DNA of 46,423 nt from an uncultured Pseudanabaenaceae cyanobacterium (GCA_938002085.1 CALLAT010000032.1:1-46423); one strand, 5' to 3'. Counted from the stretch's first letter, positions 7,759 through 40,903 are shown. Notes: generated by a model from the sequence alone, not told the origin. A program made the numbers and translations.

Positions 7759-8877
7759 TTGGCAGAAATACTTTCTGTGGATGAGCGAGCATCGTTGCCG
7801 GCGCTTAAGCGTGAAGCTAGGCTCAGGTTAATGGATACGGTGACAGGCCTATTGATTGTCACCATGGCTGTGTTGACCTTGGCTCGTGCTTGGGCTGGCG
7901 CACCGCTGAACAATGTTGTTGTGCTGGCTGAAGGGTCTTACAGCTTGGTTCTGTTGGCTAGCTTGGGGCTAGCCCGCCGGTCCCGCTCCTTGGTGCTGTC
8001 GGCCTGGGTTCTTGTGATCGGCCTGTTGTTGACGATTCTGGTTGCTGCTTATCAGGCCGGTGGGTTAAATGCTCCTGTGCTGGTGGCTTTACCCTTTGTG
8101 CCGATGTTGGCAGCGCTGTTGTTGGGGCGGCGCTTTCTGCCCATCTTGACGGTGCTTGTGATTTCGCTTTTGCTGGGACTTTATGGCTTGCAATACCAAG
8201 GCTTGATTGAACCTCAGCCTCTGGATGAGGAAACCCGCAGCCTGTGCCAGTTCATCATGGTTCTATTGATCGTCTGGCTTTGCACCTGGTTGGGATACTA
8301 CTGCGATCGCCAGAATGATCAAATGTACGAACAGCTCTCGCTGTGGGCCCATACTGACGGTCTGACGGGAGTGGCCAATCGACGCTTTTTTGATGAGCGC
8401 TTAACCCAGGAGTGGTTACGGAATCAGCGGGTAAGGCGACCGTTGGCGTTGTTGTTGGTGGATATTGATCACTTCAAGCGCTACAACGATTCCTATGGCC
8501 ATGTGGAAGGCGATCGCTGTCTTCGGGCCATTGCCCAAACTCTGTTTATGCACTGCCGTCGTTCGGGAGAGCTGGTGGCTCGCTATGGCGGTGAGGAATT
8601 TGCGTTGATCTTGCCCAATGTTGACCTGCCGGAAGCGGCGGCGATCGCGGACAGCTTGCGCTTAAAAATTGAGAAGCTCCATGCTGCGGGACATCCTGAT
8701 CTACAAGAGAGAGTGACCGTCAGTATTGGGTTTTCGAGTATGGTGCCCCATGAATTTACGCCCCAGGAGCGCTTCGTTGTGCAAGCGGATCAGGCACTCT
8801 ATCGAGCCAAGCGATCCGGGCGCAATCAGTCTGTGGGGGCGGTTGGGCCAAGCGGGCGAGTCAATGCCACGAGTTAG
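7759..8877 (+). CDS. Membrane diguanylate cyclase (GGDEF)
   Basis: This 372-residue inner-membrane enzyme would make cyclic di-GMP from two GTP. Five or six hydrophobic helices span about residues 27-182, followed by a GGDEF domain (about 195-360). The active-site loop is intact as GGEEF (277-281), with the metal-binding VDIDHFKRYND upstream. The product-inhibition I-site, normally RxxD five residues before the loop, reads RSGE (268-271), so feedback control may be weakened. The start is uncertain: the longest frame begins with TTG at 7759 without a good ribosome site, and GTG 7777 or ATG 7831, just before the first helix, are alternatives. The gene ends 17 bases from the convergent MBOAT gene. 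Confidence 0.88.
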   Translation: MAEILSVDERASLPALKREARLRLMDTVTGLLIVTMAVLTLARAWAGAPLNNVVVLAEGSYSLVLLASLGLARRSRSLVLSAWVLVIGLLLTILVAAYQAGGLNAPVLVALPFVPMLAALLLGRRFLPILTVLVISLLLGLYGLQYQGLIEPQPLDEETRSLCQFIMVLLIVWLCTWLGYYCDRQNDQMYEQLSLWAHTDGLTGVANRRFFDERLTQEWLRNQRVRRPLALLLVDIDHFKRYNDSYGHVEGDRCLRAIAQTLFMHCRRSGELVARYGGEEFALILPNVDLPEAAAIADSLRLKIEKLHAAGHPDLQERVTVSIGFSSMVPHEFTPQERFVVQADQALYRAKRSGRNQSVGAVGPSGRVNATS

Positions 8878-20592: not shown

Positions 20593-21864
20593 TTAGAACG
20601 ATGGTGCGGAGGGGGTATAGAGCTGAATGCGATTACGTCCTAATTGCTTGGCCTGGTATAGGGCGCGATCGGCGGTCTCGATCAAACTTGTTTCCGGGAT
20701 ATCAACCTGGGGAATCAGCCATGAAATGCCTGCACTGATCGTGACTGCAGGACTAATCGAAGAGGATTCATGGGGAATGCCTAAGGCTTCCACGGCTTGA
20801 ATGATTGCGGAGGCAACCTGACAGGCCCCCTGGGAGGGAGTATCTGGCAAGATCACTGCAAATTCTTCACCGCCATAGCGTGCGACTAAATCCTTGGTGC
20901 GATTAGCAGTTTGGGCGATCGTCTGAGCGATCTTTTGTAAGCATTCATCGCCCGCAAGATGACCATAGCGGTCGTTGTATCCTTTGAAGTAATCCACATC
21001 CAGAAGAATTAACCCCAAGGGTTTTTGGCTGCAGCTGAGTTGGCTCCATTGCTGGCTGAGGTAGTCATCAAAACAGCGTCGGTTCGCCACTTGGGTGAGA
21101 CCATCGAGTTTCGCCAGACGATGCAGTTGAGCATTACTGTGCTGGAGTGCAGCAGTGCGCTCCGACACCTTGAGTTCAAGACTGTGGGTGTAGGCCTTTA
21201 GTTCTGTCTGCAATTGTTCGAGCTGCCCAAGGGTTGTTTCCAGCTCGGCTCGTTGGTTTTCGATGGTGAGAATGTCACGATAGGAGCGCAGGGCCATGAT
21301 GATCGTTGTCAGCAGGCGTTGGCGGCTGAGGTCAAGCTTGACCTGATAATCATTGATGTCGTAGTCCAGCATGATCGAGGCTTCAGGTGCCTCACCGGGT
21401 TGGCCCGTGCGTAGGACGATGCGAGACTTCTGATTTCCTAAATCTTCACGGATCTGCTGGGCGAGTGTCAGACCCGCATTGGAGGTTTCCATGACCACAT
21501 CCAACAGTACGACGGCAATGTCGCTGTGGGCGAGCATGAGCTGGTGGCCTTCTCTGGCCGAATAGGCCGAGAGAAACTTGAGGGGGAGGGTTTCAAACTG
21601 GAAGCTATTTAGGGCCAAGCGGGTAGCGCTGTGAACATCTGGATCATCATCGACGATCAGAATTTTCCACTCCTGGGATTCGTCGGAGACTTTCTGCAGG
21701 TTGTCCTCGCTGGGGGAATTCGCTGAGTCAGTGTCTTCTTCCAGCCAAATGATTTCATCATCCTCGCTAATCAAATTAGCGCTGAGCCCGCTAATTTGAT
21801 TAGCGCCGAGCCCGCTGATGTCATCAGTAGAAATATCTTGTAGAGGTAGAGCCTGATCGTTCAT
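20593..21864 (-). CDS. Response regulator with GGDEF output (REC-GGDEF)
   Basis: The 423-residue cytoplasmic protein is a phosphorylation-controlled diguanylate cyclase. Residues 1-65 are a low-complexity acidic extension containing a small peptide repeat (SGLGANQI/SGLSANLI). A REC domain follows (67-195) with acidic pocket VDDD (71-74), phosphoacceptor Asp122 and Lys176; its IVLRTGQPG and YDINDY pattern matches a REC subgroup seen with GGDEF or EAL outputs. A coiled coil (205-245) leads to GGDEF (250-415) with active GGEEF (331-335) and an intact I-site RTKD (322-325), so product inhibition is expected. The histidine kinase gene 176 bases upstream is the obvious cognate kinase. The gene converges on the GTPase gene. 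Confidence 0.92.
   Translation of the reverse strand: MNDQALPLQDISTDDISGLGANQISGLSANLISEDDEIIWLEEDTDSANSPSEDNLQKVSDESQEWKILIVDDDPDVHSATRLALNSFQFETLPLKFLSAYSAREGHQLMLAHSDIAVVLLDVVMETSNAGLTLAQQIREDLGNQKSRIVLRTGQPGEAPEASIMLDYDINDYQVKLDLSRQRLLTTIIMALRSYRDILTIENQRAELETTLGQLEQLQTELKAYTHSLELKVSERTAALQHSNAQLHRLAKLDGLTQVANRRCFDDYLSQQWSQLSCSQKPLGLILLDVDYFKGYNDRYGHLAGDECLQKIAQTIAQTANRTKDLVARYGGEEFAVILPDTPSQGACQVASAIIQAVEALGIPHESSSISPAVTISAGISWLIPQVDIPETSLIETADRALYQAKQLGRNRIQLYTPSAPSF
21766..21804. repeat. Paired 15-base palindromes inside REC-GGDEF gene
   Basis: GCTAATCAAATTAGC at 21766-21780 and its exact reverse complement at 21790-21804 are separated by nine bases, and each 15-mer is itself an inverted repeat (GCTAAT/ATTAGC). 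They encode the repeated peptide near residues 17-33 of the cyclase, 60-100 bases after its start codon. Confidence 0.85.
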
Positions 21865-25226: not shown

Positions 25227-28142
25227 TTACCTCGTTGTCATAAGGCTGAAATCCAGAGGTTCTGGCTTGCCAATGCTGTAGCCCTGGGCGTAGTCCACGC
25301 CCATTTCTTCTAAGCAGCGCAGAATCTGATCATTTTCGACAAATTCAGCGATGGTTTCCATGCCCATCATGTGGGCGATGTCGTTGATTAAAGCAACAAT
25401 GGCGCGATCGCAGGGGTCCAAATGTATCTTCTTAACCAAGCTGCCATCAATCTTGAGAAAGTCCACCGGTAGCTCTCGCAGATAGCCAAAAGAAGAGAGC
25501 CCGCTTCCAAAGTCATCTAAGGCAAACTTGACCCCGACATCCTTCATCGCATAGATGAAGGACTTCGCTTGATCTAAGTGAGAGATGGCTGCGGTTTCTG
25601 TAATCTCGAAGCAAATGTAGTTAGGTGCGAGGGGAGAAGCATCGATCCAATCCAGTGCCTCAATCAAGAAGCGCTCATCATTGATGCTGGCCCCGGATAG
25701 GTTGACGGAAATCAGATCGCCGGGTTGGTGACAAAACGCAGCCCCACGCTGCAGAACAGTTTGCAGCACCCAGCGGTCAATAATGCCGATTACGCCGTAG
25801 CGTTCTGCCTCAGGAATAAATAATCCTGGGGAAACGGAACGACCCCGCTCATCCCGCAGACGCAGTAATACCTCAAAGTGAGTCGCGCTGCGGAGTTTGC
25901 CCGGATGGACGATCGCCTGCTCTGCTCCTGTAACTTGCCCCGGCTTGGTTATGGGAACAACTGCCTGAATGGGTTGCTGCATCAGGTAAAAACGATTGTC
26001 TTCAATGGCGCGAGGAACGTTGGCGAGGTGCACCATTTGGGTTTGCCGAGTGGTCAAGGCAATATCTTGGCCCGTAGTGCTGTAGATTCGACCCCGGCCT
26101 AAATCTTTTGCTTTATAGCAGGCTAGGTCAGCGCGACTCAGCAAAGCAACGGCATCGGAGCCGTCAGCCTGGATCGGGATAATGCCAATACTGACGCCAA
26201 CCTGGAACTTGCGATTCTCCCAGCGAAAACGATAGGCTCGTACCCGCTCAATAATGTTTTCGCAGATTTGATTTGCTTGGGAGACGCTGCACCCTTCTAG
26301 GAGCAAACCAAATTCGTCCCCCCCCAAGCGACCCAAGTCATCCGCGCCACGAACTGATTGTTGGATGACCTGAGCTAGTTCTGCCAGCAACTGATCGCCA
26401 ACGAGATGTCCTGCTGTATCGTTGACGATCTTGAACTGATCCAGATCTAAATAGCAAAGAACAATTTGGGTGCCGTAGCGCTGAACCCGTTGCACAGCTG
26501 TTTTGAGTCGCAGATCAAATTCCTGGCGATTGATCAGTCCTGTGAGGGAGTCATAGGTAGCTTGATAGGCCAGGGTTTCTGCGAGGTAGAGCTGTTCGGT
26601 GATTTCTCGCTTCACCCCACGGTAGCCTTGGAATTGCTCTCGACTATCAAAAATGGGTTTGCCTGAGATCTGGAAAACACGGATTGCCTTGGCTGTTTGA
26701 TGGGCACGAAAGGTGAAGTTGTACAGCGGTTGGCGCTCTTCAAAGGCTTCTACAAAACCATCCCAGTCGAAGTCAAGGCGAGGGTGGTGAGCAACAACGC
26801 TTTCCAGGGGCTGTCCGATTAGCTGGTCTGGGCTCAGGCCGTTGAAGGCGCTGGTGTCGCCCGAAGCGTAGGTGAACTTCATCTCTGCATCGATTTCCCA
26901 GAAGACCGTTGCGCCTAGGCTGGCGATGTCTTCATAGCGCTGATGGCTGGCTTCGAGGGTGCGGGCAGCGATCGCTCGACGACGGATGACCTCGATCAGC
27001 AGCAAAATAATTGTTGTTGCTGCGGTTAGGGCTGCGACGTTAAGCCAAATTAGCCCCCGATGTGCTTGATAAAAAGAGGTGGGGTTATTAATGAGCACTG
27101 CGCCTGCGGGCAGGTCTTGAAGATTGATATTTAGCCGTTTTAGCTCTTGGGCGTCAAATGTCCAAGTGTTTTCGGCTTGTGTAATGGGTGGCAGGGATTC
27201 AATGGATTGGCCCGAAAGGATTTGACGGACTAGCCCGACGGCTTGTTTCGCGTGATGTTCGCCATTGAGGATCTTGCCGCCCACCGCTCCATTGCCTAAG
27301 TGCATAAAGCTGGAACTATAGATCGGGTTTTTGATTTGCTCTTGCAGCATCCTTGAAGATTGTTCAAAGCCAATCAGAGATCTTTCAGGGGTGTTTTGAC
27401 GAAGTTGCCCAACGATGACAACGGGCCAATTTTCCGGATAGGGAGCGAATGCCGTTTTGATCTTGTCGGGAGTTATATCTGCGACTACGGCCATTTGGCC
27501 GAAGTCGCTAGAGACTTTCTGTAGGCCTTCTGTATGCGATTTTCCTGAGGAACTGGAGTCGGAGACGACAATGACTCCATCAGCTTGGGTTTGGCGTATA
27601 GCCTCGAGCACTGTTTCCTTTTCTGCATGGGATTCAAACACTCCCGTTGCATTGGGTAAATTGAGTAATTCAGGACTGACCTGGTTGATGCCTAAAAAGA
27701 CGAGGGGTATATCTGGGAAATAGGTTTCTCGCTCACTGAGAACCGCATTAAGTCCGGGATCATCGGACACCATGATGAGATCTAAGTCGGTGTCGGAGTA
27801 TTTCTCCTGGAGCTGCTGGAAAAAAGTGGTTTTGTGTTTGAGGTGGGGATAGCGTTTGGCATCGAGAAATTCATGCCACAGCGTAACTTCGTTCTTGTTG
27901 CTAGTCTCCTCGTTGATGGGAGGTGTTGCTCCAAGATCCTTGTCCATCATTGATAGCTCTGATAAGAATGCTTGATCCATGCCTCGCTTGAGAGCGGCTG
28001 TCCAAGATAGTTCAGGATGGTAAGAATGGATAATCAGCACATTCTGCTTAGCCTCGGCGACAGTTGCCCAGGCTAAGAGAGGTATGAAAGTTCCGAGGAT
28101 CGCTCCAAAGAGGGGATAGCGACCGGAGCTAATCCAATTCAT
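25227..28142 (-). CDS. ABC_sub_bind-PAS-GGDEF-EAL transmembrane receptor
   Basis: The 971-residue receptor has a signal anchor (about 10-30) and a periplasmic ABC_sub_bind-type domain (33-320, beginning NVLIIHSYHPELSW). A transmembrane helix (365-388), a PAS domain (about 400-515), GGDEF (525-690) and EAL (705-965) follow. GGDEF has GGDEF intact (607-611) and I-site RGAD (598-601). The EAL site is also complete: Glu757 in FEVLLR, Asn814, Glu846, Asp876/Asp877 in DDFG, Lys897, Glu933 and Gln953. It can therefore in principle make or break cyclic di-GMP, with periplasmic ligand binding choosing. Substrate-binding domains of this type usually serve ABC importers. It heads a six-gene same-strand array. 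Confidence 0.93.
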   Translation of the reverse strand: MNWISSGRYPLFGAILGTFIPLLAWATVAEAKQNVLIIHSYHPELSWTAALKRGMDQAFLSELSMMDKDLGATPPINEETSNKNEVTLWHEFLDAKRYPHLKHKTTFFQQLQEKYSDTDLDLIMVSDDPGLNAVLSERETYFPDIPLVFLGINQVSPELLNLPNATGVFESHAEKETVLEAIRQTQADGVIVVSDSSSSGKSHTEGLQKVSSDFGQMAVVADITPDKIKTAFAPYPENWPVVIVGQLRQNTPERSLIGFEQSSRMLQEQIKNPIYSSSFMHLGNGAVGGKILNGEHHAKQAVGLVRQILSGQSIESLPPITQAENTWTFDAQELKRLNINLQDLPAGAVLINNPTSFYQAHRGLIWLNVAALTAATTIILLLIEVIRRRAIAARTLEASHQRYEDIASLGATVFWEIDAEMKFTYASGDTSAFNGLSPDQLIGQPLESVVAHHPRLDFDWDGFVEAFEERQPLYNFTFRAHQTAKAIRVFQISGKPIFDSREQFQGYRGVKREITEQLYLAETLAYQATYDSLTGLINRQEFDLRLKTAVQRVQRYGTQIVLCYLDLDQFKIVNDTAGHLVGDQLLAELAQVIQQSVRGADDLGRLGGDEFGLLLEGCSVSQANQICENIIERVRAYRFRWENRKFQVGVSIGIIPIQADGSDAVALLSRADLACYKAKDLGRGRIYSTTGQDIALTTRQTQMVHLANVPRAIEDNRFYLMQQPIQAVVPITKPGQVTGAEQAIVHPGKLRSATHFEVLLRLRDERGRSVSPGLFIPEAERYGVIGIIDRWVLQTVLQRGAAFCHQPGDLISVNLSGASINDERFLIEALDWIDASPLAPNYICFEITETAAISHLDQAKSFIYAMKDVGVKFALDDFGSGLSSFGYLRELPVDFLKIDGSLVKKIHLDPCDRAIVALINDIAHMMGMETIAEFVENDQILRCLEEMGVDYAQGYSIGKPEPLDFSLMTTR

Positions 28143-31955: not shown

Positions 31956-32354
31956 ATGACTTTTCTTAGATCAGTTTACGTTTCGCTAATTGTTTCAGGA
32001 TGCTGCGTCACTATCGCGGGCCTATCTTCTCCATCTTTAGCGGGAGAGCCTGACTTAGAGGTCGATTTCTCGGGTGTTATGCCAGAGCCTTTAGTCAATC
32101 CACTTTTGCTGGGATTGACTTCGGGAACTTGTTTAGGACTGATGGCTCGATTGAAGGCTGTCAAACGTCAATGTGATTCACTTCAGGTGCAAGCTGCTGC
32201 TCAGGAGCAGTCCTGGAATACGATGCTTCAAACATCTATTGAGCCAGAATTTTCTGAATCTGATTTGAGCCAGCTGGGATTAGATTCATTCTTAGAAGCT
32301 GAATTGAGCCAACCTGCTGAGGATCCAAAATTCTCAGTAAGCATTATGGCTTGA
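31956..32354 (+). CDS. Small exported protein of unknown function
   Basis: The 132-residue protein has a signal peptide (about 1-30, ending PSLAGE), then a short segment with PLLLGLTSGTCLGLMARLK, which could be a membrane helix, and an acidic, Gln/Ser-rich C-terminus with two similar motifs, SDLSQLGLDSFLEAELSQP. I do not recognise a family. It would be in the periplasm or attached to the inner membrane. It is an isolated gene: 257 bases of AT-rich sequence precede it and 514 bases separate it from the cellulose operon. The codon and residue composition look normal. No function is proposed. Confidence 0.6.
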   Translation: MTFLRSVYVSLIVSGCCVTIAGLSSPSLAGEPDLEVDFSGVMPEPLVNPLLLGLTSGTCLGLMARLKAVKRQCDSLQVQAAAQEQSWNTMLQTSIEPEFSESDLSQLGLDSFLEAELSQPAEDPKFSVSIMA

Positions 32355-32868: not shown

Positions 32869-34074
32869 GTGAATAAATCTGAGAAAACTATGATTAATGT
32901 CTCTAAACTGTCCTTGACGTTTTCCTACTATAGGCTGGTCTTTCGATGGCCTAACAATTGCGATCGCTTAAATCATCTGCGAGCCCAGACACTCCTGTCT
33001 TGCACGGCGATGGTACTTTTCATGGCCCCTGCTGCCCAAGCGGAACCATTGCCGACTCCCGCAACTTGTGCCTGTGAGGATAGTGATGCTAAGCCCGCCT
33101 CAATCCTTCAAGTGCAGGGCACTTATATTCAGCAGGGTGATGAAGTCACCGGCCAGGCTCGTGCTTCGGTGAGTTACCCCATCACGGATTATTCAGAAAT
33201 CAGTGGTGCTGTGGAGTTCACCCAGGGGAACGCCCTTTCCAATTCTGCTGAGGATCTGCGGATTCAAGAGCTGTATTACAACGCTCAATTGCCCGGTCAG
33301 TCCAATGTCAATTTGACGGTTGGCAAGACGGACTTGACATCCCATTTTGATCGCAACAGTTTTGCCAAAGATGGCACGACCCATTTCTTTAACTCTGCTC
33401 TGCAATCCAATCCAGCTTTGGTGAGTGCAGGCATGGCCAGCCGCCCTGCTGCGGTGGCGCGGTGGCGCGCATCAGATGGCGTGATGGTGAAGGGGGCGGT
33501 GTTCTCCTCGGATCCAGAGCTGACTGAGCTGGGCGCTAATGGTGCAGCGGCGGAGGTGGGAATCTGGCAGGGCAATACCCTGGTGCGCGCTACCTATGTT
33601 ACGGGGGAGGATCGTGGGGCAGAAACGAGCTTTCAAGAGGCTTATAGTTTGCCCCGTGGTGGCGGTCAAACGGGAGTGAAACCGGGCGATCGCGAACATG
33701 CCCTGGGCCTCAATGCCGAAACCTATTTCCCTGGGAAAAAAGTTGGAGCGTTTGCTCGATATGGTTGGTATCACAATAGCGGCTTGGGTGAGTCGGCCCA
33801 GACCTATAGCGCTGGCATCAATGCCTTGGATGTTTGGCGCGATCGGGATCGCCTCGGGGTGGCCTATGGCCGTGACCTATCCAACGAGCAACTGCGTAAG
33901 CAGCAGGGTCAGTCAATTCCCGACGTGGCTGAAGTTTTCTATGACGCCCCGATCACGAAAAATGTCCGTGCTGGCATCACGCTCCAGCAGCGCAATGGAT
34001 TTTCAGAAACCGTGGTTGGATTCCGTGTTAAAGCCCAGTTTATGGCATCCCCGATTGAGAGGTTATTCCAGTGA
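32869..34074 (+). CDS. OprB-like outer-membrane porin, putative BcsC barrel substitute
   Basis: The 401-residue protein has a long N-terminal region and a signal peptide ending PAAQAEP. After it comes a predicted beta-barrel of OprB (carbohydrate-selective porin) type. VTVGKTDLTSHFDRN-like text (NLTVGKTDLTSHFDRNSFA) and FNSALQSNPA fit that family's conserved middle. No SLH or OmpA domain is present. It is first in the operon and its TGA overlaps the GTG start of the TPR gene by four bases (GTGA), so it is made with it. BcsC-type exporters combine TPRs with an outer-membrane barrel; here the barrel would be a separate chain. The start may be GTG 32869 or ATG 32890. Function in glucan export is inferred from position. 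Confidence 0.75.
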   Translation: MNKSEKTMINVSKLSLTFSYYRLVFRWPNNCDRLNHLRAQTLLSCTAMVLFMAPAAQAEPLPTPATCACEDSDAKPASILQVQGTYIQQGDEVTGQARASVSYPITDYSEISGAVEFTQGNALSNSAEDLRIQELYYNAQLPGQSNVNLTVGKTDLTSHFDRNSFAKDGTTHFFNSALQSNPALVSAGMASRPAAVARWRASDGVMVKGAVFSSDPELTELGANGAAAEVGIWQGNTLVRATYVTGEDRGAETSFQEAYSLPRGGGQTGVKPGDREHALGLNAETYFPGKKVGAFARYGWYHNSGLGESAQTYSAGINALDVWRDRDRLGVAYGRDLSNEQLRKQQGQSIPDVAEVFYDAPITKNVRAGITLQQRNGFSETVVGFRVKAQFMASPIERLFQ

Positions 34075-35924
34075 AACAGACTCAGAAACCGCTACATAGT
34101 CTGACCAGCCGTTTAGGGCAAGGATTGAGCATTCTCTGTTTTGTGGTGCTGCCAGGCCTGCTGGCTCCGCAATTGGTGTTGCCCGCCGCTGCGGCTCAAT
34201 CGTCAGCAATCTCCGTGAAGACAGGCTATGAGCTATTAGAAAAGGGCTGGGCCAATGCGGCGATCGAGTCCTTTCGTGAGGCGTTGAGCCTGTCCCCTAA
34301 GTCGGTGGAAGCGACCTTGGGATTGGCGATCGCTCACCAACGCAATGGCCAGATCGATTTGGCCTGGCAAGGCTATCAGCAAGTGATCTCCCTAGACCCC
34401 AATCAAAGGGATGCTCTGAAAGCGATCGGCACCGTGGCAAGCTTTCGGCTCGAATGGCAAGAAGTGGGTTTGGCTGCTCTAGATCAGATGTTGGAGCAAC
34501 AGCCGGATGATTGGCAGTCGCGACGACAGCGGGCCTTGCTACGCTTCTACCAAGGCCAGCTTGATGGAGCCTTGGTTGACTATGAGCAGTTGCTGGCCGC
34601 AGAAACTGATGCGCAGCAATTAGAGGGAGATAATCTGCTGGGTGCTGCCCAGGTGTTGGCCTATCGCGATCGCCCCGCCCAAGCACTGGAACTCTTCGAG
34701 CGCTACCAGCAACAGGCTGGCGACATTCCCTCGGAGCCTGGGTTGGCCTATGCCCAGGCGCTGTACAAGACGGGCCAGGCTGATTCAGCGATTCCCATTT
34801 TTCTCACGGCCTTGGAGACAGCCACTCCAGAGCGGGAAACCCCGCTGCGGTTGGATCTGGTGCGAGCCTACTTGGCCAATCAACAGCCGGAGCTTGCGCT
34901 GATGGTATTATCTCCGTTGAGGAGCCAAGCTGAGACCCCGTCCCATGAACCTTTGGCTGTGGCTCGCTTGCTGACTCAAACTGTTGGGCAGTTGGGGATG
35001 AGTTGGGAGCAAGACCCGGCGATCTCCACCGATATTGCCCGGTTCTACAGGCAAGGACTTGATCAAACCGACTCCCCCAGCGTGGCCTTACGGACAGAAG
35101 TTGCCGATATCCTCGCCAATCTGACTGGAGAAGAGACCTATGCTTTGACCCTCTATCAGGCTTTGCTGGACTCTGAGTTGCAACTGCAAGAATCGCTCCA
35201 GCTTCCCCTGCGCGTGAAGTCTTTGGCCTTGGCCCAGAAACTAGGCCGGATTTGTTCCGTAGACGTATGGCAAGAGCTGCGACCCTATCTGAGTGAAGCC
35301 CCTGCTACTGCCATAGAACAGAAAGCCCTCGCCCAGGCCCTGATTCCGTTGGAGCCCGATGCTGAATTTCTCGGTCTCTATCAGACCTTGATGGCTGGGG
35401 ATGTGGATGTGGATGCAGATTTTCTCCACTTTCGCATTGCCCAGATGCAGGCTCAACAGGGTGACTTAGCCGAAGCTCGCCAGTCCCTAGAGCGCTATGC
35501 CGCCGCTAAGCCTGGAGACCCCAACTTCACTACGGCTCTGTTCCAAGCTGAACTCCATCGCCGTCAAGGCAACTTTTCTGAGAGTCAGAAGATCTACGAT
35601 CGCATCTTGGTCCAGGCTCCCAATAATTTGGCAGCTCGTTCCGGTTTAGGTGGCTTAGTGCTTCAGCAACAAGAGCTTGCCCTGGCTCAGCAGCAGTTTG
35701 CCCAGGTCTTGCTGGAAGATCCCGATAATCTCACTGCCCAGGCCAGTCTGGCGGAAATCAAGGCGGCCCAAGGTAAGCCGATCACGGCCCTGCGGGAGCT
35801 AGAGCAACTGGCCCAGCAGCCCTGTAGCCCCGGAGAGCACTGTGATTTGCAGCGGCGATCGCGCCAAATTCGTCAGCGCCTGCATCGCCAACGGGGCTTT
35901 CAACCGTTCTGGGAGCGCTACTAA
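34071..35924 (+). CDS. TPR periplasmic protein, BcsC-like helical part
   Basis: The 617-residue protein begins with a signal peptide (about 1-44, ending PAAAAQ) and continues as tandem TPRs from about 50 to the C-terminus. Examples are GYELLEKGWANAAIESFREA and AARSGLGGLVLQQQELALAQ. There is no terminal beta-barrel, unlike E. coli BcsC, which joins TPRs to a barrel. It would sit in the periplasm and link BcsB to the outer-membrane porin. It starts four bases inside the porin gene and ends 96 bases before bcsB. The last 30 residues are Arg-rich. A generic TPR scaffold is the alternative, but the gene order argues for a glucan-export role. Confidence 0.8.
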   Translation: MKQTQKPLHSLTSRLGQGLSILCFVVLPGLLAPQLVLPAAAAQSSAISVKTGYELLEKGWANAAIESFREALSLSPKSVEATLGLAIAHQRNGQIDLAWQGYQQVISLDPNQRDALKAIGTVASFRLEWQEVGLAALDQMLEQQPDDWQSRRQRALLRFYQGQLDGALVDYEQLLAAETDAQQLEGDNLLGAAQVLAYRDRPAQALELFERYQQQAGDIPSEPGLAYAQALYKTGQADSAIPIFLTALETATPERETPLRLDLVRAYLANQQPELALMVLSPLRSQAETPSHEPLAVARLLTQTVGQLGMSWEQDPAISTDIARFYRQGLDQTDSPSVALRTEVADILANLTGEETYALTLYQALLDSELQLQESLQLPLRVKSLALAQKLGRICSVDVWQELRPYLSEAPATAIEQKALAQALIPLEPDAEFLGLYQTLMAGDVDVDADFLHFRIAQMQAQQGDLAEARQSLERYAAAKPGDPNFTTALFQAELHRRQGNFSESQKIYDRILVQAPNNLAARSGLGGLVLQQQELALAQQQFAQVLLEDPDNLTAQASLAEIKAAQGKPITALRELEQLAQQPCSPGEHCDLQRRSRQIRQRLHRQRGFQPFWERY

Positions 35925-36020
35925 CGCTGCTCCGATCTGATCTTTCGAGTCCGCTGAACGGTGGTGATTCCCCATCGTTCGTTTTCCCCTGTGTTGTTCT
36001 CTGTAACCCCCCTACCTCCC

Positions 36021-38315
36021 ATGAACTCTAAAATCTCTTCCCTGGTTGGTTTTGCATTTCTGCTGACCACCCTCAGTTCTGGCATGACTCCCCCCGTGAT
36101 GGCTGCTGCTGAAGCCCTCAGTCCTGTGTTTCAGCCTCAGCTTAAGGATGAAGGAGGAGGGGAATATCGCCTGAAATTTAAGGACTTGCCGGGGGAGGGC
36201 GATCGCCTGCGCCTCCAGGGTCTCCTCACAGAAACCAACCTCGAATTTCCTAAACCTCGCAGTTGGTCCCCCAACAAAGTCAAGGCCGAAATCCACTTCC
36301 GTGCCTCCTCTGCCCTCGTCAAAGGCTCCTTCCTCACCCTGCAAGTCAACGGCACCAATGTGGGCAGCGTTCCCCTCAATGTTGGGGAAGGCAAGGTTCA
36401 AAAAGTGGCGTTTGATATTCCGGCTGATGTGATCAAGGATTTCAACGAGGTCAAACTCAGAGCCCAGCAAAAGATCGATGAGGAATGCATCGATCCCATG
36501 GACCCGACGCTGTGGACGGAGATCTTGCCTGAGTCTAGTTTCTCCTTCAACTATGAGCTGGCGCCCGTGGCCCTGGACTTTAGCCAATATCCCTATCCCT
36601 TTTTGGATAACCTCAGCCTTCAGCCGAATCAGATTGCCTACTTGCAGCCCAAGGCGATCGCGGCTGACTGGCTAACCTCCGCCTCACGGCTCCAGGCTTC
36701 CGTAGCTCGCTTGGCAAACTTTCAGCCTCTCCAAACCCGAGTGGTGGTCTCCACCGATGCGGTCAAAGGGGAAGAGTCCCTGGTCATCATCGGTACGGCC
36801 CAGCAGCAGCCGGACCTGGCTAAGCTCAAGCTTCCTTTCACGCTTAAGGGACATCAGTGGCTGGATGAAGCGGGTAAGCCCATTGCTCCAGAGTCTGGCA
36901 TTCTTATGCTGACGACGACGCCCAATGGTCAAGCGCCAGTGTTGGTGGCGACTGGGAATGGTGCTGAAGGGGTGGCTAAGGCAACGCAGTTTTTGGCCCA
37001 AAGCCGCGATCGCGACCTCGCTACCAGCCATGCTCTGATCGTGGATGACCTCCCGGCAGCAACAACGCCGGACCGTCGCGATTGGCCCCGCCACCTCCCT
37101 GCTGATAGCCGTTTCCAGCTCAAGGATTTGACCCTCCAGGAAACGCGGGACTTCGAAGATGTGACGGTGCGCGGGGCGTTCTCCTCGCCCGTGGCATTCG
37201 ACTTCCGTGCCCTGCCCGACGATCGTTTCCTGCCCGGCAGCCAGATGAAGCTGGCCTATAGCTATGGTCCCCAGGTCAACCCTCGCACTTCCACCGTGGA
37301 AGTTCTGCTGGATGGGGTGGCCATTGCCGGGGAGGATCTCAGCGACCAAAAAGGTGGTATCCGCGAAACGCTCAACGTGGAGCTGCCCGCCGATCGCATC
37401 ACCCCCACCTCAAAGCTCCAGGTGGCTTTCCGCCTCAAGCCTGGAGAAGCCGGAGCCTGCCGCCGCACCAGTGACGACCACCTCTGGGGCACGCTCCATG
37501 GGGAAACGACCTTTAATTTGAAACGAGATACAGTGGTCAGTCTGCCGGACCTACAGCTCATGCATGTGGGCTTCCCCTTCGGTGCCCCCCAGGATTTGTC
37601 TGATACCGTGGTGGTGGTACCCGATCAGCCCAGCGCGACGGATTTGGAAACCCTGCTGGTGGTGAGCGATCGCCTCGGTCGCTTGAGCCGTGCCGAAGGC
37701 CTAGAGCTGGTGGCCCAGCGCTCCGCAGACCTGACCGAAGCCCAGCGCCAGCAGGCAAATCTCATTGCCATCGGCACTCAGGAAAACTTCCCCCTGGCTG
37801 AGCAGTTGCCGCAGCAATCCTTAAAGCTGCGCGGCGCGAATGTTCGCCAGTGGGGCGAGGCTAATGGCCAGATCCATAGCATTCGTGACCAGCAGGGTGT
37901 GATCAGCGAGATGATTTCTCCTTGGAACCGCGAACGGGTCATTCTCAGCCTCAGCGCCCAGTCCGAGGCGGGGCTCCAGCATATTCAGAATGTGTTTCGC
38001 GAAGATGATCTGTTTTTCCAGCTGCAATCAGACACGGCCTTAGTCACCCCAAAAGTTGCTAATGCAAAACTGACTCCTGGAGACATTGATGAGGATGACT
38101 ATGAACTCAAGTTCCTCAATCAACAAAAAACACGCCAAATTGAAAAGGTGAATCCGGTGCGCAAAGTCTCTTATTGGATGCAGGGCAATTGGATGACGGT
38201 TCCCATCGGTTTACTTATGGTGGGCTTGGGCTCCTATGGTCTGTCCTCGGGCTATCTGTACAAATCCTCCCCCAAATCTACTCAGAAATCTGGTGACCAA
38301 GAGGAGCGTAAATAA
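36021..38315 (+). CDS. bcsB: Cellulose synthase subunit BcsB
   Basis: The 764-residue periplasmic subunit guides the glucan chain leaving BcsA. From the ATG at 36021 there is a signal peptide ending VMAAAEA. A BcsB-type body follows with alternating carbohydrate-binding-like and flavodoxin-like parts. The pattern EIHFRASSAL...LTLQVNGTNVGS appears near 90-115 and a similar repeat FDFRALPDDRFLPG...VEVLLDGV near 395-445. The protein ends with one transmembrane helix (about 720-745) and a charged tail, which would anchor it beside BcsA. An upstream GTG at 35961 is in frame but less likely. Its stop overlaps the BcsA start by one base (TAATG), so the two are made in equal amounts. Confidence 0.92.
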   Translation: MNSKISSLVGFAFLLTTLSSGMTPPVMAAAEALSPVFQPQLKDEGGGEYRLKFKDLPGEGDRLRLQGLLTETNLEFPKPRSWSPNKVKAEIHFRASSALVKGSFLTLQVNGTNVGSVPLNVGEGKVQKVAFDIPADVIKDFNEVKLRAQQKIDEECIDPMDPTLWTEILPESSFSFNYELAPVALDFSQYPYPFLDNLSLQPNQIAYLQPKAIAADWLTSASRLQASVARLANFQPLQTRVVVSTDAVKGEESLVIIGTAQQQPDLAKLKLPFTLKGHQWLDEAGKPIAPESGILMLTTTPNGQAPVLVATGNGAEGVAKATQFLAQSRDRDLATSHALIVDDLPAATTPDRRDWPRHLPADSRFQLKDLTLQETRDFEDVTVRGAFSSPVAFDFRALPDDRFLPGSQMKLAYSYGPQVNPRTSTVEVLLDGVAIAGEDLSDQKGGIRETLNVELPADRITPTSKLQVAFRLKPGEAGACRRTSDDHLWGTLHGETTFNLKRDTVVSLPDLQLMHVGFPFGAPQDLSDTVVVVPDQPSATDLETLLVVSDRLGRLSRAEGLELVAQRSADLTEAQRQQANLIAIGTQENFPLAEQLPQQSLKLRGANVRQWGEANGQIHSIRDQQGVISEMISPWNRERVILSLSAQSEAGLQHIQNVFREDDLFFQLQSDTALVTPKVANAKLTPGDIDEDDYELKFLNQQKTRQIEKVNPVRKVSYWMQGNWMTVPIGLLMVGLGSYGLSSGYLYKSSPKSTQKSGDQEERK

Positions 38316-40903
38316 TGCATCAGCAACATCCCATCCAAGCCTTCAGCCACTGGCTTACGGCCACCCTGCCCCAGCAATTCCAAACCCGCTGGACAACCTT
38401 TGGGACCATCCAGAGCCTGCTGGCGATCGCCCTACTCCTGGCCATGTCCTGGCAGCTCATCGTTACGCCCCTGGAAATTTGGCAGCAGGGCTGTACCGCG
38501 ATCGCTCTTATCCTCGTCGGTCTCTGTGTGGTCAAGGCCGAACAGCTCCAACCCAAGCAGTCTCAGGTCAGCGACTTCCTCCATCTATTTTTGATGTGGC
38601 TCAGTCTGATCACCACCCTGCGCTACCTCTACTACCGCACCCAATACACCCTCAATTTGGATAGCTGGGTAAATGGGGCCTTTAGCCTGATGCTCTATGG
38701 CGCAGAATGCTACGCCATCTTCACGCTGCTGTTGACCTACTTCCAGACCCTGCAAATTAAAACCCGCCGCCCCGTTGATCTGTCCCTGATTCCCCAGGCT
38801 GCTTGGCCTGATGTGGACATCTATATTCCCACCTATAACGAGGAAGTGGAGATTGTTCGTAAAACGATTGTGGCGGCGCTGGCGATCGACTACCCCTCGG
38901 CTAAAAAGTCGGTCTACGTGCTGGATGATGGACGAGCTGAGAAGTATCGCGATCGCCGCCAGCAGCTCCGCCAAGTTTGCGAAGAATTGGGCTGTGGCTT
39001 CCTCACCCGCGACAACAACGACCATGCCAAAGCGGGCAACATTAACACCGCCCTCAAGCGCACAGGCGGCGAGCTGGTTTTGATCTTGGACTGCGACCAC
39101 ATTCCCACCCGTTCCATCCTCCAGGAAACCGTTGGCTTCTTCCGCGATGGCAAAGTGGCCCTGGTGCAAACGCCCCATTGGTTCTATAACCCTGATCCCT
39201 TCGAGCGCAACTTGATGACCCAGGGCCGCGTTCCCGTGGGCAATGAGCTGTTCTACAAGGTGTTGCAAAAGGGCAACGACCATTGGAATGCAGCCTTCTT
39301 CTGTGGCTCTGCTGCGGTGATTCGGCGGGCGCAATTGCTGGAGGTGGGCGGCATTGCCACCGAGACCGTGACGGAAGACTGCCACACCTCCCTGCGGCTC
39401 CATTCCCAGGGCTATAAATCGGTCTATTACGACAAGATTATGGTGGCGGGCCTAGCCCCCGAGACTTTCTCCTCCTATGTAGGCCAGCAGGTTCGCTGGG
39501 CGCGGGGCATGGCCCAGATTTTGCGCCTGGAAAACCCGCTGTTCAACCGCAAGCTTAACCTCTCCTTGGCCCAGCGCATCTGCTACTTCAGCGCCACCTC
39601 TCACTTCTTCTTTGGCTTTCCGCGTTTGATGTATGCGATCGCCCCCACGCTCTTCCTGCTCTTCCGCCTTAATCCCATCCGAGGCATTGGCATTGAAACT
39701 GTTGTGTACGCACTTCCCCACATTATGTTGGCCATGCAAGCCAACTATATCCCCTATAAAAACGTCCGCTTCTCCTTTTGGAATGAGCTATTTGAATTCG
39801 CCCTCTCCTTCCAGGCGGGCCTGGTCACGCTAATGGCGGTGATCAATCCTAATTTGGGCAGCTTCAACGTGACCGATAAGGGCCTGATGGTAGAAAAGCG
39901 TCAATTTGACTGGCGATCGGTGAGCCATCTCCTAGTGATCATTGGCTTAATCGTGGCCTCCCTCGCCATGGGGCCAGTGTGGCTCAAACTCCACCCAGAA
40001 GAGGCGGAGTCGGTTCTGGTGAATATGGCCTGGTGCCTCTTCAACTTGGTTCTGCTGATTGCAGCCAGCTTGGTTGCCCTAGAGCAGCCCCAGCAGCGCA
40101 AAGCCCACCGCCTACAGCATCGCCTGCAGGCCAACCTCTGGGCGCAATCGACGGTGAGGAAAGGCATCACCCAAAATATTAGTGAGACCGGGGCTGCAAT
40201 CCTGGTGGATCACTGGTCCCAAATGCATGAGCAAGTTGAGCTGGAGGTCTTCGGTGAATCGGGCGCCAGCGTTCGCTTGATGGCCAATGTGCTGCGCGTT
40301 GAACTGGTCAATGATGTCCAGTCCCGAGTGGTCGTTGAGTATGAACCCCTCTCGACTGGCCAGGCCGATGAACTGACGCTGATCCTCTATTCCGATGTGC
40401 AGGAGTGGTATGGCCAAAACCGTTCCGCGGCCGATAATCCGCTGGATTCGCTCAAGTTCGTCACCCTCAGCCTCCGGCGAGCCCTGCGACGCTATCGACC
40501 TGCACCCCACATACAATTTCGCCAAGCGATCCGCACGCCAGTGCAACTGTTTTGGGATGGACATTTTTATCAGGCCTGGGGCACGGCCATCCATCGCCAG
40601 GGCTTGCGATTAGAAATGGAAATTGATCCCCATTTCCAGGCCAAACTGGCCCTGGCCAAACAGTCTGAACAGCCTGCTTTAGTGGGTTTGATCGTTGATC
40701 AATTTGAGGGGGAGTTGCCGTCCCGGCGATTGGTAGGACAGATTCTGGCGGTAAAGCCCCAAGCATCGAGCCGTTCAGAGCATGGGACCTCCTCTAAGTT
40801 GCTCTTGGAGATTGGCTTGCCCCAAGCCCTAGCCCAGCGGCAGCGCCCGGTGATGCAATCGCTTTTGCAAAAGCTTCCAGTCAGCCCGGGAGTGACCCCA
40901 TAG
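38315..40903 (+). CDS. bcsA: Cellulose synthase catalytic subunit BcsA with PilZ domain
   Basis: The 862-residue inner-membrane GT2 synthase polymerises UDP-glucose into beta-1,4-glucan. Visible motifs: LDDG (203-206), DCD (259-261), TED (353-355) and QQVRW (391-395), the D,D,D,QxxRW set; and the gating-loop FNVTDK (517-522), matching FxVTxK. About eight hydrophobic helices flank them. The C-terminal PilZ domain starts near 595 with R599xxxR603 and N621xS623xxG626, the cyclic di-GMP-binding set, so activation by that molecule is expected. A further 150 residues follow the PilZ core. No bcsZ or bcsQ lies nearby. Whether the product is plain cellulose is unproven. Confidence 0.95.
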   Translation: MHQQHPIQAFSHWLTATLPQQFQTRWTTFGTIQSLLAIALLLAMSWQLIVTPLEIWQQGCTAIALILVGLCVVKAEQLQPKQSQVSDFLHLFLMWLSLITTLRYLYYRTQYTLNLDSWVNGAFSLMLYGAECYAIFTLLLTYFQTLQIKTRRPVDLSLIPQAAWPDVDIYIPTYNEEVEIVRKTIVAALAIDYPSAKKSVYVLDDGRAEKYRDRRQQLRQVCEELGCGFLTRDNNDHAKAGNINTALKRTGGELVLILDCDHIPTRSILQETVGFFRDGKVALVQTPHWFYNPDPFERNLMTQGRVPVGNELFYKVLQKGNDHWNAAFFCGSAAVIRRAQLLEVGGIATETVTEDCHTSLRLHSQGYKSVYYDKIMVAGLAPETFSSYVGQQVRWARGMAQILRLENPLFNRKLNLSLAQRICYFSATSHFFFGFPRLMYAIAPTLFLLFRLNPIRGIGIETVVYALPHIMLAMQANYIPYKNVRFSFWNELFEFALSFQAGLVTLMAVINPNLGSFNVTDKGLMVEKRQFDWRSVSHLLVIIGLIVASLAMGPVWLKLHPEEAESVLVNMAWCLFNLVLLIAASLVALEQPQQRKAHRLQHRLQANLWAQSTVRKGITQNISETGAAILVDHWSQMHEQVELEVFGESGASVRLMANVLRVELVNDVQSRVVVEYEPLSTGQADELTLILYSDVQEWYGQNRSAADNPLDSLKFVTLSLRRALRRYRPAPHIQFRQAIRTPVQLFWDGHFYQAWGTAIHRQGLRLEMEIDPHFQAKLALAKQSEQPALVGLIVDQFEGELPSRRLVGQILAVKPQASSRSEHGTSSKLLLEIGLPQALAQRQRPVMQSLLQKLPVSPGVTP

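Follow-up and report, generated by a model that had tools for sequence, protein, structure and literature searches.

We studied a cellulose synthase (bcs) operon in which the outer-membrane barrel and the periplasmic tetratricopeptide repeat (TPR) protein are encoded by separate genes. It lies on a contig of an uncultured Pseudanabaenaceae cyanobacterium (GCA_938002085.1 CALLAT010000032.1:1-46423), and the whole stretch of DNA analyzed, 46,423 nucleotides long, is referred to here as the window. The genome from which it comes is only 62.6% complete, so absences from that genome are weak evidence. Four plus-strand open reading frames (ORFs) encode, in this order, the barrel, the TPR protein, BcsB, and BcsA with a PilZ domain (positions 32869 to 40903). 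An initial annotation of the window had given the same order and spacing, and both were reproduced: the barrel and TPR genes overlap by 4 bases (GTGA, 34071 to 34074), the gap between the TPR gene and bcsB is 96 bases when the ATG at 36021 is taken as the start (36 bases with the GTG at 35961), and bcsB and bcsA overlap by a single base (TAATG).

The synthase itself was the most readily assigned part of the operon. BcsB matched PF03170 with an E value of 3e-95, while BcsA reached 717.8 bits against the CelA model TIGR03030 (cutoff, 699.1). By reading the BcsA translation, we located the motifs DDG, DCD, TED, and QQVRW (QxxRW), as well as the PilZ motifs RxxxR (RKAHR) and NxSxxG (NISETG). Judging from sequence, these two proteins are a Bcs synthase, that is, a CelA equivalog, a member of the BcsB family, and a PilZ domain bearing cyclic di-GMP (c-di-GMP) motifs. 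The operon has no gene for the glycoside hydrolase GH8 (BcsZ) and encodes a short barrel and a short TPR protein, features in which it resembles the second operon of genome G002 (locus L013). The one GH8 gene of the window's genome is located on a different contig, not adjoining bcs genes. No Rfam RNA was found in the window.

The barrel protein consists of a signal peptide followed by a barrel of about 340 amino acids (aa). It had no match in Pfam, NCBIfam, or the PDB sequences, and comparison of a family profile (A2) with the PDB sequences gave no real match either. PF04966 (OprB) did not match the window barrel, and among the full-length family members scanned, only the divergent L104 passed (26.6 bits versus 22.9). 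Similarly, Alginate_exp (PF13372) matched neither the window barrel nor the other family members scanned. Since the window porin has no family match, the label "OprB-like" used in the initial annotation is not readable from a standard scan, and its support comes instead from the fold and from profile comparison. An AlphaFold2 (AF2) model built from an alignment of 24 homologues (A3, also used for the conservation figures below) contained 16 long strands, with a predicted local distance difference test score (pLDDT) of 80.9 and a predicted template modeling (TM) score of 0.80. The first-ranked Foldseek match of this model was 4gey, the OprB porin of P. putida (E = 5.3e-13; TM, 0.62). Along similar lines, hhalign related the barrel profile to cyanobacterial SLH-OprB porins at 97.2% (E = 4e-11) versus 0.4% for the barrel of E. 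coli BcsC and 0.3% for a BCSC_C-like barrel of Nostocaceae. The proposed affinity with carbohydrate-selective porins was thus borne out by fold and profile, in the absence of a standard family match. Two members of the family end in an aromatic residue (...RLRAQF and ...RLRADW), the usual ending of outer-membrane barrels.

Between the signal peptide and the barrel, most members of the barrel family (L009, L011, and L083-L104) carry an N-terminal extension of about 170 to 900 aa with a high content of Pro, Ala, Gln, and Ser. The window barrel and that of L013 are of a short form without such a Pro/Gln-rich extension. Open frames of about 1,000 aa in relatives were considered as possible fused barrel-TPR genes and rejected, the extra length being low-complexity Pro/Gln/Ala-rich extension with no Pfam domain.

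The TPR protein matched many Pfam TPR models, and no barrel domain was found in it; the description of a TPR protein that ends without a barrel and is preceded by a separate porin gene was accurate, the two being distinct ORFs in the window. No lipobox was seen by eye in the translated signal region, for which no lipoprotein predictor was run. The AF2 model was an all-helical solenoid with a pLDDT of 90.5. A fold search with it returned generic TPR solenoids only and does not separate BcsC, PgaA, and AlgK. The N-terminal part of the protein is conserved, and the C terminus is a near-invariant tail, RG[F/Y]QPxWE, in which residues R566, G567, Q569, P570, and W572 (numbering of alignment A4) were the same in all 22 aligned sequences. 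Within the single-chain model, this tail was placed with the lowest confidence (pLDDT, 61), as would be expected if it folded only upon binding a partner.

Table 1. Features of the bcs operon in the window and examples of the associated lipoprotein gene in other loci (named by locus).
Feature	Position	Strand	Basis
Outer-membrane beta-barrel, 401 aa	32869..34074	+	ORF; GTG start, alternative ATG 32890; profile family A3
Near-invariant barrel segment G152-L184 between predicted strands 5 and 6	33322..33420	+	Alignment A3 and model
Periplasmic TPR solenoid protein, 617 aa, signal peptide	34071..35924	+	Pfam TPR models; AF2 model
Free C terminus of TPR protein, tail RGFQPFWERY, putative docking peptide	35892..35921	+	Conservation; low pLDDT
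BcsB, periplasmic co-polymerase, C-terminal transmembrane anchor, 784 aa from GTG	35961..38315	+	PF03170; probable ATG 36021
BcsA cellulose synthase, 862 aa	38315..40903	+	TIGR03030 and motifs
PilZ domain of BcsA	40091..40387	+	PF07238, E = 3.4e-9; c-di-GMP motifs
Lipoprotein, examples	L009:13338-14126; L193:2223-3002; L095:4494-5315		

We surveyed 386 cyanobacterial genomes sampled evenly across the phylum, with profile matches graded as strong or weak. Strong barrel homologues were present in 16 of them. Strong BcsB homologues occurred in all 16 and, beyond these, in a single genome of another class. If the two were independent, the chance of identical sets of this size would be near 1e-28, a value that the kinship of the genomes makes less extreme. 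Elsewhere in the phylum, there were weak matches to the barrel profile, none scoring as a bcs component; of the four that were scanned, two were SLH-OprB porins. The barrel was also encoded in all five further genomes of the same family that were searched, and wherever contigs were long enough, the order was barrel-TPR-(GH8)-BcsB-BcsA, an order also seen when whole genomes were examined. A larger set came from named GTDB genomes, in which peptide patterns from the conserved loop between barrel strands 5 and 6 retrieved 204 relatives; 80 barrel loci were kept, all of them cyanobacterial. The TPR gene directly followed the barrel gene in 79 of these loci (the remaining one lay at a contig end), and farther downstream there were usually genes for GH8 (BcsZ), BcsB, and BcsA. 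The exact 4-base overlap between barrel and TPR genes recurred in 37 of the 79 pairs, and the tail pattern was found in 68 of 76 named TPR ORFs, the other eight comprising seven incomplete ORFs and one variant. Given that 79 of 80 named loci keep the barrel followed by the TPR gene and that barrel and BcsB share 16 of 386 genomes, chance can be excluded. Within the class, the barrel-TPR bcs architecture is widespread, and BcsB-bearing genomes have it as a rule, in agreement with the guess of the initial annotation that it could be a cyanobacterial architecture. In two genomes (G010 and G123), an apparent separation of barrel and BcsB was rejected, since in both the contigs break between the TPR gene and that for GH8.

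The most conserved part of the barrel is the loop between predicted strands 5 and 6, with the motif DLTS.FDRNSFAKD..THFFN...NPAL. Its mean majority frequency in A3 was 0.87, versus 0.73 for the strands and 0.60 for the other loops, and 18 of the 44 residues invariant across the 24 sequences fall in or beside it. These figures come from A3 only, since the named loci were retrieved with patterns taken from this very loop and are unusable for measuring its conservation. In general porins, the strand 5-6 position is that of the constriction loop L3. With OprB porins (PF04966), including the cyanobacterial SLH-OprB proteins, the operon barrels share the fold and a distant sequence similarity that extends to this loop; unlike them, the operon barrels scanned have no SLH domain, mostly fall below the Pfam OprB cutoff, and are tied to bcs operons.

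The initial annotation described the pair as a BcsC function split into two proteins, but a split in the sense of gene fission was not shown. The two proteins together do contain the parts of BcsC, a TPR solenoid and a 16-stranded barrel, and BcsC has been remarked by Pereira et al. to combine the functions of AlgK and AlgE (PMC4594306), as would suit an ancestral BcsC gene that was broken in two and had its order swapped later. However, the barrel profile has no detectable relation to either kind of BcsC barrel and a 97% match to OprB porins, the barrel gene always preceded the TPR gene (in all 79 named pairs, whereas in BcsC the barrel comes last), and no fused barrel-TPR ORF, as an intermediate would be, occurred among the 80 named loci. 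The lack of a BcsC-barrel relation combined with the reversed gene order fits replacement by a recruited porin better than fission, which we consider very unlikely. Recruitment of a porin from a different lineage is a more fitting description of the exporter than a BcsC broken in two, and its barrel was probably drawn from the OprB porins common in cyanobacteria. Nor did a complete BcsC turn up elsewhere, which the initial annotation had named as a finding that would count against its proposal: PF05420 (BCSC_C) had no match in the window's genome and no match above the cutoff in the 16 genomes with barrel and BcsB, several of which are single contigs. Across the sample, PF05420 exceeded the cutoff in two of 386 genomes, neither of them among the 16.

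Barrels of the BcsC kind do exist in the phylum, and Simm et al. (2015) listed them for five strains (PMC4365693). We observed short BCSC_C-like barrels (366 to 455 aa) without TPR in L076, L079, and L080 (family f7, apparently Nostocaceae); they do not adjoin bcs genes and are unrelated by profile to the operon barrel family.

It is likely, in our view, that the window carries a c-di-GMP-responsive cellulose operon with a two-protein outer-membrane export module in place of BcsC. BcsA-PilZ would make and extrude the beta-1,4-glucan chain, and BcsB would receive it in the periplasm, roles that are established for these families and are assigned here by profile. In E. coli, the first TPR of BcsC binds BcsB, and its C-terminal side is flexibly joined to the barrel (PMC11379886). 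The N-terminal repeats of the TPR protein may bind BcsB in the same way as TPR#1 of BcsC, the solenoid would span the periplasm, and the RGFQPxWE tail may dock noncovalently to the separate barrel, so that the E. coli layout would work here too if the tail stands in for the covalent link. The 16-stranded barrel of OprB lineage, a predicted fold, would then be the exit pore in the outer membrane. Most operons add BcsZ (GH8) and a divergently transcribed lipoprotein. We infer that the product of the operon is cellulose.

Several points weigh against this interpretation. In general porins, this fold forms a diffusion channel, and the window barrel is a long-branch member, set apart from the barrels of its genus-mates, so divergent that its pore properties could differ. 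In addition, one bcsBA of Moorena has no adjoining barrel or TPR gene, and one operon of G016 (L102) runs TPR-BcsB-BcsA with no barrel adjoining. Moorena also has a barrel-TPR pair that is hundreds of kilobases from either bcsB and still paired. These exceptions suggest that a barrel encoded elsewhere can serve in trans and that it usually moves together with the TPR protein. The occurrence of the porin away from bcsAB in relatives, which the initial annotation had raised as a point against its own proposal, is thus real but rare, and there the porin stays with its TPR partner.

The type III systems offer a different model for the TPR protein, since they have BcsK, a periplasmic scaffolding protein, replacing BcsC (PMC11470070). 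Both are TPR-only periplasmic proteins of bcs operons, and if the TPR protein were a BcsK-like scaffold only, the barrel could be structural or serve to anchor peptidoglycan and not be a conduit; the large Pro/Gln-rich and probably periplasmic extensions of the long barrel proteins would be consistent with this. Nevertheless, type III systems are described without a BcsC-type barrel, while the TPR gene of the present operon type is coupled to a barrel gene, which precedes it both in the window and at 79 of the named loci, unlike the BcsK pattern (the exception is L102). Moreover, the most conserved part of the barrel is the loop that forms the pore constriction of general porins, and its conservation would be unexpected if the barrel were purely structural. 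This disfavors the scaffold-only reading, which we regard as the least probable of those considered.

A separate question is the direction of transport. The barrel could serve in ordinary OprB-type uptake, recovering sugars such as oligosaccharides from BcsZ, with the glucan leaving elsewhere, e.g., through TolC. The OprB-type fold and homology and the GH8 enzyme of most operons speak for uptake, and a TolC route for cyanobacterial XcsA/HlyD systems is proposed in sections of a 2025 review (PMC12430437). Such XcsA-XcsB(HlyD)-TolC systems, found in Thermosynechococcus and Synechococcus elongatus, likewise have a cyanobacterial cellulose synthase with PilZ, but they include an HlyD-like protein and no BcsB, whereas the operon type described here has a true BcsB, a TPR protein, a porin, and usually GH8. 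No HlyD-like protein was matched among the nine window proteins scanned (operon and flanking genes). Furthermore, the barrel is retained in operons without GH8, the window's included, its nearest downstream neighbor is the TPR gene, often translationally coupled to it, and its distribution among genomes tracks that of BcsB. We therefore consider an uptake role unlikely and export through the barrel the preferred reading.

Among characterized exporters, the E. coli-type (type II) BcsC is similar in combining a periplasmic TPR solenoid with a 16-stranded barrel, encoded together with bcsA, bcsB, and bcsZ. It differs in being one chain with the barrel at the C terminus, instead of two genes with the barrel first, and in the lack of profile similarity between the barrels. 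The AlgK/AlgE pair of alginate export is comparable in that a TPR-type scaffold and a porin are separate proteins in synthase-dependent secretion. The differences are that AlgK is itself a lipoprotein, whereas no lipobox is visible in the TPR protein studied here, and that AlgE has 18 strands, whereas the barrel of this operon has 16 and is OprB-like; the lipoprotein of the bcs loci belongs to a third, separate family.

In the phylum-wide survey of Pereira et al. (2015), the BcsC_C domain was found in no cyanobacterium studied, and different proteins were suggested as the exporter (PMC4594306). In sections of the 2025 review (PMC12430437), cyanobacterial operons are described as typically without bcsB and the export route is called unresolved; those sections do not describe the barrel-TPR bcs operon, of which there may be earlier notice elsewhere. 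The operon represents a genuine variant of the Bcs secretion system, is widespread, and includes a strong candidate for the missing exporter. With modest confidence, we favor the broader proposal that it encodes a distinct, nonhomologous cyanobacterial glucan-export module made up of an OprB-lineage porin, a tail-docking TPR bridge, and a dedicated lipoprotein, and that this module is the exporter missing from BcsB-bearing cyanobacteria. The BcsB-bearing type of cyanobacterial operon now has a conserved candidate pore and bridge with defined motifs (the strand 5-6 loop and the RGFQPxWE tail). The arrangement also suggests that a porin of the sugar-uptake type can be adapted to export polysaccharides and that a covalent bond between TPR and barrel, as in BcsC, is dispensable.

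The lipoprotein, of about 260 aa, is encoded by a divergently transcribed gene beside the barrel gene, upstream of it in 73 of the 106 loci examined (examples in Table 1). Its lipobox Cys was invariant in the 10 sequences aligned, and no Pfam family matched it. It was present in 15 of the 16 genomes with barrel and BcsB, and elsewhere in the 386 there was only one weak match (G043); it was not found in the incomplete genome of the window. Together, these data make it a probable further component of the system.

Other arrangements were also seen in the phylum. Divergent BcsB-like proteins of 645 to 654 aa occur in small-genome cyanobacteria (L107 and L109, examined, and L108 and L110, by matches). 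In L107 and L109, the gene is directly followed by one for a protein of 764 to 769 aa with weak BcsA similarity and an N terminus like the N-domain of type II secretion ATPases, and this pair is another glucan-synthase arrangement in small-genome cyanobacteria. In a genome from another class of the phylum (G348), two BcsB-like genes lie in tandem (L105, 6195-10936), and the 20 kb examined contained neither a BcsA-like gene nor a barrel gene. Within the window, a 132-aa ORF with a signal-like N terminus (31956-32354) lies between a methylase gene and the barrel gene and has no homologue in the compared loci of relatives. Finally, as judged from translations, the window contains three GGDEF-type genes (7759-8877, 20593-21864, and 25227-28142), one of them GGDEF-EAL, near the PilZ-bearing cellulose synthase.

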